From the IMG/VR virus record IMGVR_UViG_3300017781_000177, positions 1-21,213 of that record: 21,213 bases of DNA; one strand, written 5' to 3'. Source of the DNA: a virus. The notes beneath the pieces are model-generated. The model saw nothing but the letters and a program-made list of their open reading frames with translations. It ran no database searches and had not been told where the DNA came from. The translations under genes and the position numbers were made by a program. Shown piece after piece: positions 1,655 through 20,037 of this stretch (within the stretch, counting starts at the first letter, position 1; every line of letters begins with the position of its first letter).

Positions 1655-2740
1655 TTATTTTATATAGTTCTTAAATTTTTTCATCTTTGAGAAAGGTGTA
1701 TCACTCATATATTTTTTTACAACCTTGTTTGTGCCTTCTTCACCTGCACCATATTCTTCTTCTACTGAACCTTCTTTGTAATATGGGTTCTTAGGGTCTG
1801 CATCTTTTGTTTCATCTGGCCACCAATCATTTGTGTATGTCTTACCAGTTTCAAACATCTTTCTCATTTCTAAAATTCTTTTTTCATACTCTTTCTTACT
1901 TGGTTTTACTCGACCTGCGACTACATCTAAAACATAATTAAGTGTTACTGCATTTGCTGTAAGTGAACCACACCTTGCACCAACTTCGTTTTTAAGAAAG
2001 TCTAAAAGTATTGACTCACTACTGTTTACCATATCTTCTGCAAATTCATGTGGTACTTTTAGATCAATGTAACTATAAACAAAATCATAATGTGGTGCAG
2101 GAGAACCATGTAATATGTGTTCGTCTAATACCACAATTCTTTTAAATCCATCTTTACCATACCAAACTGCTCTTTCACCAGTAAGTTCATCAGGTTGACC
2201 AAATGTTTTGGTTAGATGCTTTGAATACTTAACAGGTTCGGCATATGTCCACTCATTGTATGGTGAACTATCTTCATTTACACTCTTATGTAATTTTACA
2301 CCAGTAACACTATGAATTAAATCTCTAAACTCTTTATGTTTTTTATTCTTCATATGTGAACTTAATTGTTTCTTTTGTTCTGGTGTTGCCTTAGAATGGA
2401 AGTTTACTAACTCCATAACACCTAAATTTCCTTTGTATGCAGCTTCATTCATCTTTTTAGTTTTTCTTTTCATAGAATTTATGAAAGAACGATATACGGC
2501 AGCCGCACCGGTTTTACCCATCACTCTAGCTCTTTGTTCCATAGCTATCGCTGCTTGAATCTTATGGGCGTGGGATCGTCCGCTTGACTTAATCTTTCGT
2601 ACTGAAGCTTCTGCATCAGACTTACTTGCGAATTTGAGTCCGTGGATTGTTCCTTTCGGATCCTCGTCTGTGTAGAGGTCTGAGTGCTTTTTAGATTTTG
2701 CTGGTTGACCTTTTTTCCTTGCGATTCTTGGATTACTCAT
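1655..2740 (-). CDS. Conserved marine-phage protein of unknown function, basic N-terminus
   Basis: 361 residues, not assigned to a known function. Residues 1-100 are very basic (K, R, S, H rich) and predicted helical, with a KGTIHGLKFASKSDAE block and a long run of Lys/Arg-rich helices ending at KKMNEAAYKG (about 95-104). Residues 105-155 look like a separate small helical module ending VTGVKLHKS. The rest (about 165-320) is mixed alpha/beta with an acidic, charged tail. From memory, the N-terminal block recurs in marine T4-like phages. The ATG is preceded by AGAGGATA and overlaps the upstream stop as TAATG. It is the last gene of the 5565-1655 block. The basic first third could bind nucleic acid, and M-N-E/A at about 98-101 loosely resembles a prohead protease site, but both points are inference. 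Confidence 0.7.
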   Translation of the reverse strand: MSNPRIARKKGQPAKSKKHSDLYTDEDPKGTIHGLKFASKSDAEASVRKIKSSGRSHAHKIQAAIAMEQRARVMGKTGAAAVYRSFINSMKRKTKKMNEAAYKGNLGVMELVNFHSKATPEQKKQLSSHMKNKKHKEFRDLIHSVTGVKLHKSVNEDSSPYNEWTYAEPVKYSKHLTKTFGQPDELTGERAVWYGKDGFKRIVVLDEHILHGSPAPHYDFVYSYIDLKVPHEFAEDMVNSSESILLDFLKNEVGARCGSLTANAVTLNYVLDVVAGRVKPSKKEYEKRILEMRKMFETGKTYTNDWWPDETKDADPKNPYYKEGSVEEEYGAGEEGTNKVVKKYMSDTPFSKMKKFKNYIK

Positions 2741-3033
2741 TATCCTCTCGTTAATTTTAAAACTTTTTGCATTTGTTTTTCTAATAAATTACCACGATTA
2801 GGCCAATGAATATAAGCCTGTTCTCTGGATTTATATAGGTTAGTTAGGAAAGGCATAATTATTTGTTCTAAATCTTTCATTCTTTCTTTATATTGTTCTA
2901 CTGTTATGTCTTTCTGATAACTTTCCTTCTCTAATTTTTCTTTGACTTGTTCGTATTCTGTTTCATCAACAGCTGTAAAGCCAAAGTCAATATCTCCATA
3001 CTCATGTAATATTTTGTCTATATCGTATGCCAT
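2740..3033 (-). CDS. Small conserved phage protein, unknown function
   Basis: 97 residues. The N-terminal part carries a YGDIDFGFTAVDE segment, followed by a charged, probably coiled-coil helix (about 27-55). The C-terminal part is another helical segment with an unusual YIHWPNR motif (about 74-80). From memory, similar short proteins with a Y-I-x-W-P-N-R motif occur in marine T4-like phages, always without known function. The start lies one base beyond the stop of the upstream nucleotidyltransferase-like gene, and its own stop overlaps the next ATG as TAATG, so it sits in a coupled set. It has no signal peptide or membrane segment. A role as partner or adaptor of its neighbours is possible but not shown. 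Confidence 0.7.
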   Translation of the reverse strand: MAYDIDKILHEYGDIDFGFTAVDETEYEQVKEKLEKESYQKDITVEQYKERMKDLEQIIMPFLTNLYKSREQAYIHWPNRGNLLEKQMQKVLKLTRG

Positions 3034-3034
3034 T

Positions 3035-4264
3035 TTACTTATCCCATTGTTTCTTAACTGTGAAGTTTTGGTGTGAAAATTCTAATCTATCAACAAGTTT
3101 CAATGCACCACCAGATAATTTGTCAACTGCAACAAAACCTTCTGGGTTTGTAATCTTGAAACCATCATCTGTTCTAACAAATGAATTTGTAACTTGTCGC
3201 ATCTCTTGTAACTTACGAATAATAATTAGTTTAGCATCAACAATTTGATTCATTAGATTGAATATCTGTACTAACTGCATCGCTGATGATCTAAAAAATC
3301 TCATCATTTCACTTTTTTCTTTTTGCCTTTTTCTTTTTGTGTCGGCTCTTTTTGCTTTAAGTATTTCTTTATTTAATTTATCTTCAACAAATCTTATTAA
3401 GTTTATTGTATGTACATTTGTGTTTCTTATCTTTTGACCTGCACGAACTGATTTATTATTAAATGTTTTTATTTCCATCAATATTTTATCATTAAGTGAT
3501 AAACGATTTAACACTAATGGGCTAATTGTTCTGAATGTTCTACCTGCCTGAGAGAGTATATTTGTAATCTGTCTTGTTTCAGCCTCTGTAAATGTGGCGG
3601 TACCAGAGGCGTCGGTGAAAGAAGCATCACGAAACCAAACATCTTTTGTTGGTTGTAATCTACCAATGTCTATGTTAAAAGATGGCTTCATTGTGCTGAG
3701 TGTCCTACCGGAGTAGGAGGTATGAAAAACAATACCTAGTTGAGCGGCCTGCATTTTCTTAGCTAAGATAGAATTTTCTGGCACAGCATAGACAATAGTA
3801 TTTGGTTGAAATGTAATGTATCTTTCACCTTCAATCGTTTCTTTCTTTATATCTCCTTTTGTAAACATCATGTCGCCTTGTAATACACCTTTGATACCAA
3901 GTTTTGGTATAAATGCCAAGGCTGTTTTAAGTTTTCCATTCAGACCACCAGTTGGGTGGTTCTTATCTATATCTTTATCTGTGTAGTTTAATTTAGGTGT
4001 TATATTGAATACTGATTTAGTACCAACAAAGAACTTACCATTTGCAGGATTTATACCAGCAAAAATGGCAGGTGCACCATCCCATTTTGTTGTAACATTT
4101 ATTTTAGATGATGATTTACCTGCAAGCATATCTCTCAACGATTGTAAAAAGTTGATTGACTCTCTGGCGCCAGTAACACCACGATTCAAGATATTATCTT
4201 CTAAATGTTCTAAGTGAAGATTCTTGTCTTGTCTGGCTTCTTGTAAAAATTCTGTGAAATTCAT
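3035..4264 (-). CDS. Ligase-like nucleotidyltransferase (DUF6267-type) with capsid-targeting leader
   Basis: 409 residues. The first ten, MNFTEFLQEA, closely resemble the T4 capsid-targeting sequence MKTYQEFIAEA of internal proteins and fit the gp21 prohead protease rule (L/I-x-E before A): cleavage would fall after Glu9. The body has, in order, KWDG at 60-63 (like motif I K-x-D-G of DNA/RNA ligases and capping enzymes, Lys60 as candidate AMP/GMP acceptor), GVLQGDMMF at 126-134 (like motif III), TIVYAV at 156-161 (like IIIa), EGFVAV at 375-380 (like IV) and ALKLVDR at 387-393 (like V). A Lys/Arg-rich helix at 300-320 may bind nucleic acid. I associate this family with DUF6267, whose function is unknown. 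The ATG overlaps the upstream stop as ATGA. Packaging and ligase-type chemistry are inferred from motifs only. Confidence 0.75.
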   Translation of the reverse strand: MNFTEFLQEARQDKNLHLEHLEDNILNRGVTGARESINFLQSLRDMLAGKSSSKINVTTKWDGAPAIFAGINPANGKFFVGTKSVFNITPKLNYTDKDIDKNHPTGGLNGKLKTALAFIPKLGIKGVLQGDMMFTKGDIKKETIEGERYITFQPNTIVYAVPENSILAKKMQAAQLGIVFHTSYSGRTLSTMKPSFNIDIGRLQPTKDVWFRDASFTDASGTATFTEAETRQITNILSQAGRTFRTISPLVLNRLSLNDKILMEIKTFNNKSVRAGQKIRNTNVHTINLIRFVEDKLNKEILKAKRADTKRKRQKEKSEMMRFFRSSAMQLVQIFNLMNQIVDAKLIIIRKLQEMRQVTNSFVRTDDGFKITNPEGFVAVDKLSGGALKLVDRLEFSHQNFTVKKQWDK

Positions 4265-5565
4265 TTTGCGATTACAAAAGGACTAGAATTTATCGACCTA
4301 GATGTTACATAAGCAAATAAAGCTCTTAGAACCTTATGTTGTTTCTCCTTTGGATTTTTAAAATAAGCACTAATTAATGGTCTAATAGCATTCATAACTG
4401 TTAGACCACTTATAGCACCCATATCATTATTAAATGTTTCTCTTTGTTCTTTATTACCTTTATACAATCTACCACCAATTGATTTTATATAAATGTTTGC
4501 ATCTTCTTCAAACTTTTTGTAGTTTTGATTCCATGTATCTGATAATTTCTTAGCAAAACCTTTATCTATCAAAGAAATTTGTTTAGTAAATAGCGGTATA
4601 CCAACTAACTGACCACCTAGAGCTGCATCACCTTTATATCCAAATATAACCTTGACACCTTTTTGTGGTTTACCTTTTGAGGCCGGAGTATGTCTTATCT
4701 GAATAAAACCATCTTTGTTCCCGGATTTAACATCTATTTTTATTTCTCTAAAAGCACCTTTGCCAATAGGATAATCCTTGACCCATGCAAAAGTTTTTTT
4801 CTGTTTATTAATTTGGTATTTACCAGTCATCAAATTAAATTTTTGTGGACCGACAACAAATGTATCTGCAAGTAATTTTTCCTCTTTTTTTCGATTGAAA
4901 TTTACTTCAACTATGTTTGCTGTTCTTTCTACTTTTTTTAATGATAAGGGCAGTAATTGACCTTTGTCTATTAATTTAAAAATCATTTCATTTAATTCAG
5001 CAAATCTAAAATTACCAGCTTTTGTTTGAGGATCAGATAATGTAGATTTCAACATTTTTTTAGCCTTATCGGTCGCAAAGTAAATGTCAGCTGGCGACCA
5101 CTTGTTTATGTCACCAAAAAAAGGCCTACCATCCTCTTTCTTTGAAAAATCATTAGCTACTTTAAATAATTTAGATAATACACCCATGACCTCTTTATCA
5201 CCTCTTGCGTAAAAAACATCACCCCAACCTGGTCTCTTAATGTATCTAAAATTAGAATCAATTTTATCAATATCTTTAATTAGTTTTTCGGCTATCAGAA
5301 GAGATGATATGAACCAGGACTTGCCTGTATTATCTTTACCTAAGTAAGATAAAATTTGAGATTTTGGTAAATCAGTTTCTATGGCCTTAGTCCTAAAACC
5401 TGTGTCTATTTCACTTTTAAACTCTTCCTTAAATTGTGTGTAGTTTTTTTCACCTTTCAAATAAGGTTTCCATAATCGGTTTACTTTTACCGTACCTAAA
5501 ACATCAGCGATGTATGAAAACAAAGCCTGTGCTCCTTCCGCTTCTGCTGTAGCTGCCATTACCAT
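4261..5565 (-). CDS. Conserved phage protein of unknown function, first gene of a probable late block
   Basis: 434 residues, not recognised as a known enzyme. The N-terminus is alanine- and glutamate-rich (MVMAATAEAEGAQ). At 76-83 the string GKDNTGKS formally fits the Walker A pattern G-x4-G-K-S and is followed by a hydrophobic helix, but no convincing Walker B was found. Residues 155-163 read KWSPADIYF, a block that looks conserved. The C-terminal half is basic. The start at 5565 has a strong AAGGAG seven bases upstream. Upstream lies a 47-nt gap with a late-promoter-like motif, so this is the first gene of its block. Its stop overlaps the next gene as ATGA, tying it to the capsid-leader nucleotidyltransferase. 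It may be a functional partner of that protein, which is inference from position. Confidence 0.65.
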   Translation of the reverse strand: MVMAATAEAEGAQALFSYIADVLGTVKVNRLWKPYLKGEKNYTQFKEEFKSEIDTGFRTKAIETDLPKSQILSYLGKDNTGKSWFISSLLIAEKLIKDIDKIDSNFRYIKRPGWGDVFYARGDKEVMGVLSKLFKVANDFSKKEDGRPFFGDINKWSPADIYFATDKAKKMLKSTLSDPQTKAGNFRFAELNEMIFKLIDKGQLLPLSLKKVERTANIVEVNFNRKKEEKLLADTFVVGPQKFNLMTGKYQINKQKKTFAWVKDYPIGKGAFREIKIDVKSGNKDGFIQIRHTPASKGKPQKGVKVIFGYKGDAALGGQLVGIPLFTKQISLIDKGFAKKLSDTWNQNYKKFEEDANIYIKSIGGRLYKGNKEQRETFNNDMGAISGLTVMNAIRPLISAYFKNPKEKQHKVLRALFAYVTSRSINSSPFVIAK

Positions 5566-5612: not shown

Positions 5613-6731
5613 CTACCGAATAATATCAATCTCTTTATCTCCTGTCCATACTTCTAACTCTTTTCTAAGTCTTTTGTCGTTTTTAAGTGACACATATCTG
5701 TTTGATGCTTTCTTTCTCCACCACTTAATTACGTTCTCCAGATGGTGCTTATCGTAGTTCTCCTTGTCTGGAACCAACTTATCTGTCTTACCAGTCACTA
5801 CATCAACAAAGTTTGAGAAACCATAGGAAGAGGCGTAATATCGTTTCTTTTCAGTCAAATTAAGAGCATTCTTAATTGTATCATTGTATCGTTTCAAATC
5901 TTCGCCATCTAAACTAGCCTTGATAAGAGCCTGTATTTTTGTAGACATTTTAAGTTTTCTTGATGAAGCATCTTCTGGTACAACCGGACCACCAACTGCA
6001 CCTTCCATATAATCTTTTAAATCTTCATATGGTTTGCCGTGCATCAATGGTAAAAAATTAGAGTCTGTAAGGCCTTTGAATCTGAGAAATGGTTTCATAC
6101 CATCATACTGTGAACTAGACTTTGATGACCCATACAAACTGGTCGTTTCAAACAAACATACATTCATACCTGGATATTTCTTGTTCATCATCTCACGAAC
6201 ATGATGTGAACAACATATGGCTGCAAGTAATTTACCACCAAGTGTATTGAAACCAAATGGTTGTGATGGTACAATAGAAAAGCCCATAACAGTTGTCTGA
6301 TTAAATGACCTGGCTGTTTTTGCATCTTGAGTAAATACACAATCAAGTAATTGATTTCTAGGTTTCATGTTGATTACTGGTGAACCAAGGCGAATAAAAC
6401 CAAGCCATTTGTTTGTATTCTTTTCTAATACACCTAATCTTAATTCTTTACCTGGTACACTTACCATGTTTGAATGTGATGTAATGATTGATAGATAATT
6501 ATCCCATAGTCCTTGTTTCATTCTATGAACCTCAATATTCATATCTTCTGGGTGCATATCATAGTCATTAAACAAATCTAGTTCAGGCCCCATACCTGGA
6601 AGACCAACAGGCATATCCGAAACTGCATTTAGTTTTTGATCTCGCATATAATCAGCGATACTTTTAAAACGATCAAAGTAATCTGAAAAGGCTTTGGCGC
6701 CATATAATGCTTGTTCTCTAGTTATTTTCAT
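5613..6731 (-). CDS. DUF4338/DruA-like protein
   Basis: 372 residues. Residues 109-210 carry a pattern resembling DUF4338, the domain of Druantia protein DruA: WLGFIRLGSPV (109-119), an arginine-containing RNQLL loop, a buried strand MGFSIVPSQP (149-158), LGGKLLAAI (164-172, compared with the L-A-x-x-L helix of DUF4338), and FETTSLYGSSK (194-204, compared with the L-E-T-F block). Residues 1-100 form a helical N-terminal part. The C-terminal third is very basic (YGFSNFVD, then a WWRKK helix), as expected for nucleic-acid contact. The biochemical role of DUF4338 is not settled. The ATG overlaps the gp41 helicase stop as ATGA, so it is coupled to replication genes, and the late-promoter gap follows it. 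The assignment comes from visual motif comparison and needs a profile search. Confidence 0.5.
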   Translation of the reverse strand: MKITREQALYGAKAFSDYFDRFKSIADYMRDQKLNAVSDMPVGLPGMGPELDLFNDYDMHPEDMNIEVHRMKQGLWDNYLSIITSHSNMVSVPGKELRLGVLEKNTNKWLGFIRLGSPVINMKPRNQLLDCVFTQDAKTARSFNQTTVMGFSIVPSQPFGFNTLGGKLLAAICCSHHVREMMNKKYPGMNVCLFETTSLYGSSKSSSQYDGMKPFLRFKGLTDSNFLPLMHGKPYEDLKDYMEGAVGGPVVPEDASSRKLKMSTKIQALIKASLDGEDLKRYNDTIKNALNLTEKKRYYASSYGFSNFVDVVTGKTDKLVPDKENYDKHHLENVIKWWRKKASNRYVSLKNDKRLRKELEVWTGDKEIDIIR

Positions 6732-14663: not shown

Positions 14664-15464
14664 CTATTGTAAAAATATCAAAGGCACTTCTAGTTTTTTC
14701 AACGAGTTTGCATGAATAAAAAATCCTAAAAATCTTTCACCAATAAAACCAGGATATCTCCAAGGCAAAGGCTCTGAAAAATTATCGCCTGATTTTTTTA
14801 CTGGATAAACTTTAGAACTGTTAATGTATATGTATTCAAGTATTCGGAACAACTCTGAGGCATATCTTAAAAAGTATTTTTTTCTAAAGATATAATTTGT
14901 TGTGAATGGTATAACACTTTGATTAAACCATTGTAAGGCATTACTATGATAATAAGGACATACTTTACAAATAGATTCGTAAAAGAGGTCCCAATATTCT
15001 TTTGGTTGTGATTCTAAGTATTGTTGTGCTACAGAACCAGGCAGAACAGTTGAAGCATTAGTAATTACATCATTAAAACGTAAGTAATGTAACAAAGTTC
15101 TTTTCTCTCCTTCTGTACCTAAATTTACAGCCTCACTTGCAGGCATAGTAACTTCATTTTCATATATTGGAATTTCTGGTCTAAAAGAAAGCATACGTCT
15201 ATATGTTACACAACCAATGTATTCCATATCTGGTGGATTTTTTAAAAGATAATACTCTGTTGCTTGTTGACCAAGAGCCTTTAAAAAATCATCTTTTGAA
15301 ACACCCTCTGCTTCATAGTATTTGTACAAATCATCAAAAATCCAGTCAATGTATATAGAGTTATTACCAATCTCTACATTGTCTACATGACATGGTTTTA
15401 TCCAACTTGAGTTTTGATTGTATGGAAAAGGTTTATGAAAATGTGGATATAAACAAACACTCAC
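14664..15464 (-). CDS. DUF4422-like putative glycosyltransferase
   Basis: 266 residues beginning at GTG (15464-15462), which overlaps the stop of the small upstream gene (GTGA) and has AAGGAA as ribosome site. The block YIGCVTYRRML (82-92) resembles the hallmark H/x-Y-R-R segment of DUF4422 transferases. Later, TNYIFRKKYFLRYASELFRILE resembles the N-x-F-x-M-x-x-x-x-F-x-x-Y block followed by a helix, and the C-terminal RYPGFIGERFLGFF (about 236-249) resembles the R-x-x-G-F-L-x-E-R-L block. These enzymes add sugars to surface polysaccharides in bacteria. The role in a phage, whether decorating the virion or changing the host surface, is not known. No membrane segment is seen. The fold call is from motif order only. 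Confidence 0.65.
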   Translation of the reverse strand: MSVCLYPHFHKPFPYNQNSSWIKPCHVDNVEIGNNSIYIDWIFDDLYKYYEAEGVSKDDFLKALGQQATEYYLLKNPPDMEYIGCVTYRRMLSFRPEIPIYENEVTMPASEAVNLGTEGEKRTLLHYLRFNDVITNASTVLPGSVAQQYLESQPKEYWDLFYESICKVCPYYHSNALQWFNQSVIPFTTNYIFRKKYFLRYASELFRILEYIYINSSKVYPVKKSGDNFSEPLPWRYPGFIGERFLGFFIHANSLKKLEVPLIFLQ

Positions 15465-18945: not shown

Positions 18946-19222
18946 CATCTGTTCCTCTATATAAATCGTGATTATGTAATGCTATTATTCCATAGTGTAA
19001 CACTTTTAACAAATCATTGCGGCAATACCCATTCTTTTTGCCGTATCTTTGTGCATACTTCATAATATTACCAATACAAAATCCTTCACCATGCCCACTA
19101 TCAATTATAAATTCAGTTGCTTGAAATCTATCTTTTGAATAATGTTGGCCATATGTTTTATCAACATATTCTTGAAACTGTTTTATCAAAACATCTTCAT
19201 TGTATTTGTAATCTATTGTCAT
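18932..19222 (-). CDS. DUF3310 protein (putative nucleotide kinase type)
   Basis: 96 residues. The central region reads ATEFIIDSGHGEGFCIGN, then MKYAQRYGKKNGYCRNDLLK and a C-terminal helix with HYGII. This is the DUF3310 pattern: an F-I-x-x-x-x-x-x-x-G-F-x-x-G-N helix, the Lys-Tyr-x-x-Arg-Tyr-x-x-K motif and an N-D-L-x-K helix. The family includes T7 gp1.7, reported as a nucleotide kinase acting on thymidylate. The activity here is inferred. The ATG overlaps the upstream glycosyltransferase stop (ATGA), and the 3' end overlaps the gp45 start. A role in dNTP supply would suit its place beside the replication genes. Confidence 0.8.
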   Translation of the reverse strand: MTIDYKYNEDVLIKQFQEYVDKTYGQHYSKDRFQATEFIIDSGHGEGFCIGNIMKYAQRYGKKNGYCRNDLLKVLHYGIIALHNHDLYRGTDDEIK

Positions 19223-20037
19223 AGTTTACCAGTATATTGTGCAACAGCTGGCATATTACCAGAGAAGGCGTAAGTACCAATATGTTGTGTTTTCATCCAT
19301 GGGCATAGATGTATTTTACCACCCATCTTACGCCACATTTGGCAGAACATATAATCTTCGCTTAGATACCTTTCTGAACCTCCGCCTGTGATACTATCTT
19401 TATCATCAATTACAGTATCAAAGTACGCATGAATATATCTCGACCCATCAAAGTGTGCTTGACCTACATGATCGGGCTTATATTTAATCATAGGGTATGC
19501 TTCTCTCATTTTGTCAAATACTTGACGCTGAACCAACATGAAACCAGTACCAATCTCCATCACTTCTAATGGGTCGGTAACTTGGAATTGTGAAGTTCCT
19601 TTTACTACATTGAACACATACTCACCAACCAAAGCCTCAAGTTCTTTAGGGTCTAAATCTGGATTATTTCTAGCTGCATGAGCTACGTTACCCCAATTGA
19701 TAGATTTTTTTGGATAAGGACCACCAGATACCTCTTTGTTCATAGCTAATAAAGCTATAACGTCCTGTGGATTATAATGTATATCTGAATCAATAAACAA
19801 GAGGTGAGTAAAACCTTCGCATCTTAAAAACTCATCAACCAAATAATTTCTTGCTCTTGTAATTAGTGATTCATTAAATAGGAATGAGAATTTAGATTCT
19901 ACTCCGTATTTGTTTAATGTTGATTGTAAGTCTAAACATGACTTGATGTATAGACCATGTGCCATACCGCCATACATTGGTGTGGCGATAAAGACTTTGT
20001 GTTTTCTCAATTCATCTACTTTAACTTGAATTTCCAT
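19219..20037 (-). CDS. GT-A glycosyltransferase (family 2-like)
   Basis: 272 residues. The fold begins with KVFIATPMYGG (14-24), then a RARNYLVDEFL helix and a D-x-D site LLFIDSDIHY (79-88, Asp83 and Asp85), which holds the metal and nucleotide-sugar. GTGFMLVQRQVF and LSEDYMFCQMWRKMGG provide the likely acceptor and base region (E-D of SEDY). The C-terminus has the WMKTQHIG block with a histidine often near the metal. It has no membrane segment. It starts just after a strong terminator, with the ribosome site poorly defined (GGAA). The product probably glycosylates a phage or host component. Which one cannot be read from the sequence. Confidence 0.8.
   Translation of the reverse strand: MEIQVKVDELRKHKVFIATPMYGGMAHGLYIKSCLDLQSTLNKYGVESKFSFLFNESLITRARNYLVDEFLRCEGFTHLLFIDSDIHYNPQDVIALLAMNKEVSGGPYPKKSINWGNVAHAARNNPDLDPKELEALVGEYVFNVVKGTSQFQVTDPLEVMEIGTGFMLVQRQVFDKMREAYPMIKYKPDHVGQAHFDGSRYIHAYFDTVIDDKDSITGGGSERYLSEDYMFCQMWRKMGGKIHLCPWMKTQHIGTYAFSGNMPAVAQYTGKL

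Follow-up and report, generated by a model that had tools for sequence, protein, structure and literature searches.

Does a phage gene that begins like a packaged T4 protein encode a ligase-like enzyme that travels in the virion? The question arises at positions 3035..4264 of IMG/VR record IMGVR_UViG_3300017781_000177 (positions 1 to 21,213 of that record, hereafter the window), a 21-kb virus fragment with a T4-like replication cluster and without head genes. A preliminary description, made from the sequence without database searches, had proposed a ligase-like nucleotidyltransferase addressed to the virion interior. Both halves of that proposal came out well, in the motifs, the structural matches, and the leader, and neither is proven. 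On balance, we favor the reading that the protein, a member of the DUF6267 family, is both ligase-like and packaged, and that it would form a new packaged branch of covalent nucleotidyltransferases within a set of injected cargo proteins. Within this reading, we infer the fold (predicted), the catalysis, the packaging of the window protein, its injection, and its substrate.

Motifs and predicted fold of the DUF6267 protein

The open reading frame (ORF) runs from 4264 to 3035 on the minus strand, encodes 409 amino acids, and is the only one in the interval; the plus strand is closed by many stops. The protein is a full-length match to DUF6267 (PF19782; E=1.4e-114, 383.8 bits where the cut-off is 27, covering profile positions 1-376 of 376) and to PHROG 455 (phrog_455), and in cyanophages the family corresponds to T4-like gene cluster GC 71. 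By sequence, it is an ordinary member of a family that Pfam lists with function unknown. Relatives occur in 468 phage-collection records, nearly all of them marine or freshwater T4-like phages. In the literature searched, DUF6267 was named in no paper, and no description of a ligase-like reading or of a packaging leader was found for it. The peptides quoted in the preliminary description lie at the residue numbers given there, with the gene itself on the minus strand. The features on which the argument rests are as follows.

3035..4264, minus strand: DUF6267 gene, 409 amino acids, predicted ligase-like nucleotidyltransferase with packaging leader (ORF; PF19782; phrog_455)
4238..4264, minus strand: leader, residues 1-9, MNFTEFLQE, with a predicted prohead-protease cut at E9/A10 (logo of 134 distinct leaders; form of T4 IPIII)
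4076..4087, minus strand: motif I, KWDG, residues 60-63, K60 being the predicted nucleotidylated lysine; K60, D62, and G63 invariant among the 88 and among the 58 aligned sequences
4016..4018, minus strand: K83 (in VGTKSVF), candidate basic residue of a putative motif Ia; invariant in the 88 sequences and in at least 90% of the 58
3863..3889, minus strand: motif III-like GVLQGDMMF, residues 126-134; D131 invariant, predicted strand 127-135 in the model
3713..3724, minus strand: H181-T182-x-Y184, family-specific element between motifs III and IV, invariant in both alignments
3209..3586, minus strand: predicted helical insert, residues 227-352 (model secondary structure; alignment)
3125..3142, minus strand: motif IV, EGFVAV, residues 375-380; E375, G376, and V378 invariant
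3086..3106, minus strand: motif V, ALKLVDR, residues 387-393; K389 and R393 invariant

Across 88 aligned homologues, K60, D62, G63, Q129-G130-D131, E375-G376, V378, K389, and R393 were invariant. The K, D, G, motif III D, EG, V, K, and R remained so after compact and very distant members were added in an alignment of 58 sequences, most of them 23-33% identical to the compact reference. Lys60 and Lys389, which the preliminary description had singled out, are thus invariant in both sets. The invariant residues are arranged as motifs I, III, IV, and V are in covalent nucleotidyltransferases. A helical insert of ~125 residues precedes motif IV and is much shorter in S-SM1-type homologues. After R393, only 16 residues remain, forming one helix in the models, and no C-terminal OB domain was found. 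Because no domain follows motif V, the protein is neither a DNA ligase nor a capping enzyme of the standard kind.

AlphaFold models were obtained for the window protein, with a mean predicted local distance difference test score (pLDDT) of 82.4, and for a compact S-SM1 homologue (SSM1_189, 324 amino acids; pLDDT 86.5, predicted TM-score 0.82). In both, the motifs sit on or beside strands. Polynucleotide ligases or capping enzymes made up ~18 of the 50 best Foldseek matches of the window model in the PDB and 30 of the 50 best matches of the compact homologue, with many proteins entered more than once. Ranks 1-10 of the compact homologue held ligases only, headed by the RNA ligase of the archaeon P. 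pacificus (E 0.07). PDB searches by sequence and by profile found no ligase for DUF6267. Judging from the models, the family probably has a nucleotidyltransferase fold of the ligase type. The ligase-like reading, with DUF6267 as a divergent branch of the covalent nucleotidyltransferases, is supported, not proven.

As to the activity itself, ligation is favored, since RNA and DNA ligases come closest in fold and most such phages have no other ligase: 8 of 9 large relatives contained no recognizable DNA or RNA ligase by the models PF01068, PF09414, and PF01653. Nucleotide transfer without ligation would come close behind. Here, the motifs and fold would be shared and the nucleotide would pass to a protein, an RNA 5' end, or a small molecule, perhaps together with the NMNAT-like neighbor, to which DUF6267 is fused in S-PM2-type phages. 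That motif V is followed by no OB or other C-terminal domain is consistent with such a transferase, as are genes fused to or following DUF6267. A CTP_transf-like gene was found downstream, within the fetched flank, at 32/32 Pelagibacter-type, 25/25 P-HM2-type, 21/21 S-SM1-type, and 39/49 DLP6-type loci, and so is conserved in four clades. DUF6267-cytidylyltransferase fusions occur as 602-aa ORFs in loci L335 and L337 and as a 591-aa protein in S-PM2. Set against these points are the structural matches, mostly DNA and RNA ligases with RNA ligases first, and the scarcity of recognizable ligases in the large relatives, which leaves room for DUF6267 in that role. We regard a transferase that does not ligate as a possible but doubtful account of the whole.

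Two observations concern the fusions themselves. The S-PM2 record NC_006820 (L086, 5992-7771) shows DUF6267 split by a frame change, and the other S-PM2 entry, A0A0M6VVW4, is one 591-aa protein. For S-SM1, DUF6267 was considered as a fusion partner and rejected, as there are two separate genes there.

The N-terminal leader and the proteins of related virions

The preliminary description had likened the N-terminus to T4 capsid-targeting sequences, correctly, as IPIII starts MKTYQEFIAEA in the T4 record. The prohead-protease site that it had read, L7-Q8-E9 before A10, is present. In a logo built from 134 distinct leaders (259 loci), position P7 is F (92), P4 is F or Y (101), P3 is L (101) or I (32), P2 is free, P1 is E (134/134), and P1' is nearly always A, D, S, E, Q, or G. 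The consensus is F-x-x-[FY]-[LI]-x-E, with L or I at P3 in 133/134, although the match rule itself demanded a hydrophobic P3 and E at P1. Excluded by that rule were leaderless cyanophage-type sequences, another group that lacks the leader (L342-L353 type), truncated ends, and one sequence (L266) whose clear leader the anchor missed.

The claim that the leader is conserved held for the window clade and the non-cyanophage relatives and failed for mostly cyanophage-type groups, where it is absent. Outside those groups, homologues with a readable start have an N-terminal extension with [LI]-x-E just before the conserved body. It can be as short as five residues (MLLVE) or exceed a dozen, with the site kept and the remainder variable; HTVC008M has MYNDLLVE before a D, and very distant homologues retain it (VLTE/E in L369, LLVE/G in L376, the slash marking the predicted cut). 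The P-HM2-type cyanophage protein starts M-SKNTHLEH, at roughly the point at which the cleaved form would begin. Of the window's 27 principal minus-strand ORFs, only DUF6267 has an N-terminus with the full leader form. Of 9 relatives, 8 encode a prohead protease (PF03420), among them the window-like genomes G004, G010, and G011. Sequence comparison strongly supports a conserved DUF6267 leader of the T4 packaging form.

Does this leader mark virion proteins? The published virion protein list of cyanophage S-CREM2 (PMC10665884, Table 3) allows a comparison using a strict form, F..[FY][LI].E near the protein start. Five of six strict-leader proteins were in the list versus 47 of 213 others (Fisher p 0.003; PMC10665884), a value that is optimistic because the pattern was framed after several S-CREM2 N-termini were known. 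The five are an S-adenosylmethionine (SAM) hydrolase (MKDFDSFLEE), gp13 (MKDLHSFLTE), a kinase (VKRFDAFLTE), gp136 (MQTFSMFFSE), and a cytidylyltransferase (MKNFSSFLTE); the sixth is small and was undetected in the virion. A looser leader form predicts virion presence weakly (p=0.06), and a bare [LI]xE within the first 30 residues was rejected as a predictor (p=0.14).

Other phages agree. The cytidylyltransferase begins MKKFSAFLNE in S-SM1 and MRFRQFIIE in S-SZBM1, and it was detected in the virions of both (PMC3037559 and PMC9146016, respectively). In S-CRM01, kinase gene 130c lies two genes downstream of DUF6267 and begins MISFDQFLSE; a protein kinase is present in S-CRM01 virions, as cited by PMC10665884. 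The leaderless DUF6267 proteins of S-SZBM1 (gp135; Table 1, PMC9146016) and S-CREM2 (gp87; PMC10665884, Table 3) are absent from the virion lists of those phages. In S-PM2, the cluster-190 protein and a leaderless DUF6267 form one fusion; according to PMC3037559, the cluster-190 protein had not been found in virions of this phage. Taken as an analysis of related phages, these virion data fit a leader that directs packaging.

Two further N-termini were seen. The Cas9-like virion protein gp12 of S-CREM2 (L386, 7704-10313, minus strand) carries an internal leader, RFASFMAE/A, from residue 18, and S-CRM01 128c (L088, 10400-10951) has an N-terminus similar to it; a packaged Cas9 relative would be unusual.

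A proposed packaged enzyme and its alternatives

Several observations weigh against the packaged, ligase-like reading. Motif III is GD, where ligases usually have E at the D position, and no domain lies beyond motif V. The proposal in the preliminary description requires a nucleotidyltransferase fold; ligases did dominate the Foldseek matches of the AlphaFold models, but no single match was significant, as neither model had a PDB match with E<0.001, the best ligase match of the window model had E 0.25, and TM-scores were ~0.2. An hhalign comparison with 13 T4 Rnl2 homologues found no similarity (Prob 0.2), and the 25 Pfam families listed for 88 DUF6267 members included no ligase. The gene belongs to a replication cluster, with DnaB helicase and UvsX next to it. 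Groups that are mostly of cyanophage type have the protein but no leader, and its basic function would therefore need no packaging. Virion lists may hold co-purified proteins, according to the S-CREM2 authors (PMC10665884), and the literature yielded no virion proteome of a phage with a leader-bearing DUF6267.

The packaged-enzyme reading implies the following course of events. The precursor would be made together with the replication proteins. In the phage studied here and in its relatives outside the cyanophages, the N-terminal helix MNFTEFLQE would steer it into the prohead, where a T4-type prohead protease would cut after E9. The mature protein would be held in the head and delivered with the DNA. 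Once K60 had accepted a nucleotide, the enzyme would seal or modify the ends of incoming DNA or host RNA before phage genes are expressed. Its most plausible co-injected partners would be a nucleotidyltransferase/P-loop-kinase protein and a SAM lyase, which have the same leader.

Alternatively, the ligase-like enzyme may act only in the infected cell during replication, with the N-terminal helix as a docking or localization element rather than a signal for packaging. In many relatives, the gene does lie beside DNA polymerase, UvsX, and DnaB helicase, and mostly cyanophage-type groups do without the leader. However, the near-fixed leader positions are those of the protease site only (P3 L/I and P1 E), while lengths and other residues vary, and the same leader occurs on unrelated neighboring proteins and on proteins found in virions. 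We consider this account unlikely. Finally, a structural or scaffold head protein that has lost its activity is very improbable: in T4, the proteins that the protease processes include several of the core or shell, and the activity of DUF6267 is a prediction, but the predicted active-site residues are all invariant over very distant homologues, and a dead enzyme would not need them.

Neighboring genes and known systems

Two genes adjoin DUF6267 in the window.

4261..5565, minus strand: upstream gene, overlapping DUF6267 by 4 bases; no leader in the window copy
2740..3033, minus strand: downstream 97-aa gene; window-like relatives keep it after DUF6267

UvsX and DnaB helicase are encoded a few genes from DUF6267, and farther off there is a long polymerase-like ORF. 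The cluster also encodes a 372-aa protein with a DruA-like stretch (5613-6731, minus strand; PF14236, E 1.5e-8), and glycosyltransferase-like or DUF4422 proteins stand amid the replication genes at 62-1638, 14664-15464, and 19219-20037.

The gene just upstream of DUF6267 varies among relatives and often bears a leader. Unrelated proteins fill this place in the window (4261-5565) and in L258, L113, L110, L255, L301, L323, L291, and L293, and the slot could be an exchangeable cargo position. A scan of all flanks recovered 318 leader-bearing ORFs from more than 10 unrelated families, all of them on the coding strand; the opposite strand gave none. Among side observations, a leader-bearing HAD-type phosphatase (FDIDETLF) and a leader-bearing HD_4 protein occur near DUF6267 (L053, 5504-6238; L296, from ~3341).

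In the window-like genome G010 (146 kb), a close relative, 3 of 161 ORFs have a credible leader: DUF6267, a kinase fusion, and an S-adenosylmethionine lyase. The fusion joins a CTP_transf-like gene, ~7 kb on from DUF6267, to a P-loop kinase (Zeta_toxin/AAA_33). This leader-bearing combination, with a NadR-like layout, is seen both there (L489, 96322-98436) and in L342. The lyase (L491, 144899-145459; PF23780, E 6e-12) begins MLSLKQYMVE/G and parallels the virion-detected SAM hydrolase of S-CREM2. The idea that either DUF6267 or the cytidylyltransferase carries the leader, never both, was rejected, as both carry it in G010, C48C1, and Melnitz.

These neighbors allow a broader, more tentative proposal. 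Marine T4-like phages may inject a kit by means of one interchangeable leader, comprising DUF6267, the nucleotidyltransferase-P-loop kinase fusion, the SAM lyase, and exchangeable proteins from the slot beside DUF6267, in which DUF6267 would repair nucleic-acid ends at entry before phage gene expression. The family is widespread in marine T4-like phages, including phages of SAR11 (HTVC008M) and OM43 (Melnitz). If the packaged-enzyme reading is true, a ligase-like enzyme would be an added activity beside phage-carried RNA polymerase, ADP-ribosyltransferases, and kinases. The leader form is simple and may help in predicting virion cargo from genome sequences; it also marks the variable slot as a place to seek injected anti-defense proteins.

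Three known systems invite comparison. T4 RNA ligase 2 and the archaeal RNA ligases share with DUF6267 a KxDG motif, an acidic motif III, EGxV, and a lysine-containing motif V in the same order, as well as the lack of an OB domain, and the P. pacificus enzyme is the best structural match. In contrast to them, DUF6267 has no detectable sequence similarity, GD for GE in motif III, a long helical insert between motifs III and IV, and almost nothing after motif V. The second system is T4 IPIII (MKTYQEFIAE/A) with the gp21 prohead protease, whose leader form and cleavage consensus recur in DUF6267; relatives encode a PF03420 protease, as in the gp21 system. The T4 internal proteins are small or, in the case of Alt, an ADP-ribosyltransferase, and no packaged ligase-like phage protein was found in the literature searched. 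The third is the cyanophage virion cytidylyltransferase/NMNAT (T4-GC 190), detected in S-SM1, S-SZBM1, and S-CREM2 virions. Like DUF6267, this neighboring gene has the same leader form in several clades; it differs in its CTP_transf_like fold, and leader use is mosaic between both genes. The DUF6267 family, the principle of covalent nucleotidyl transfer, and the principle of the T4 leader are already known. As far as the literature searched shows, what is new is the meeting of both principles in one protein and a proposed function for DUF6267.
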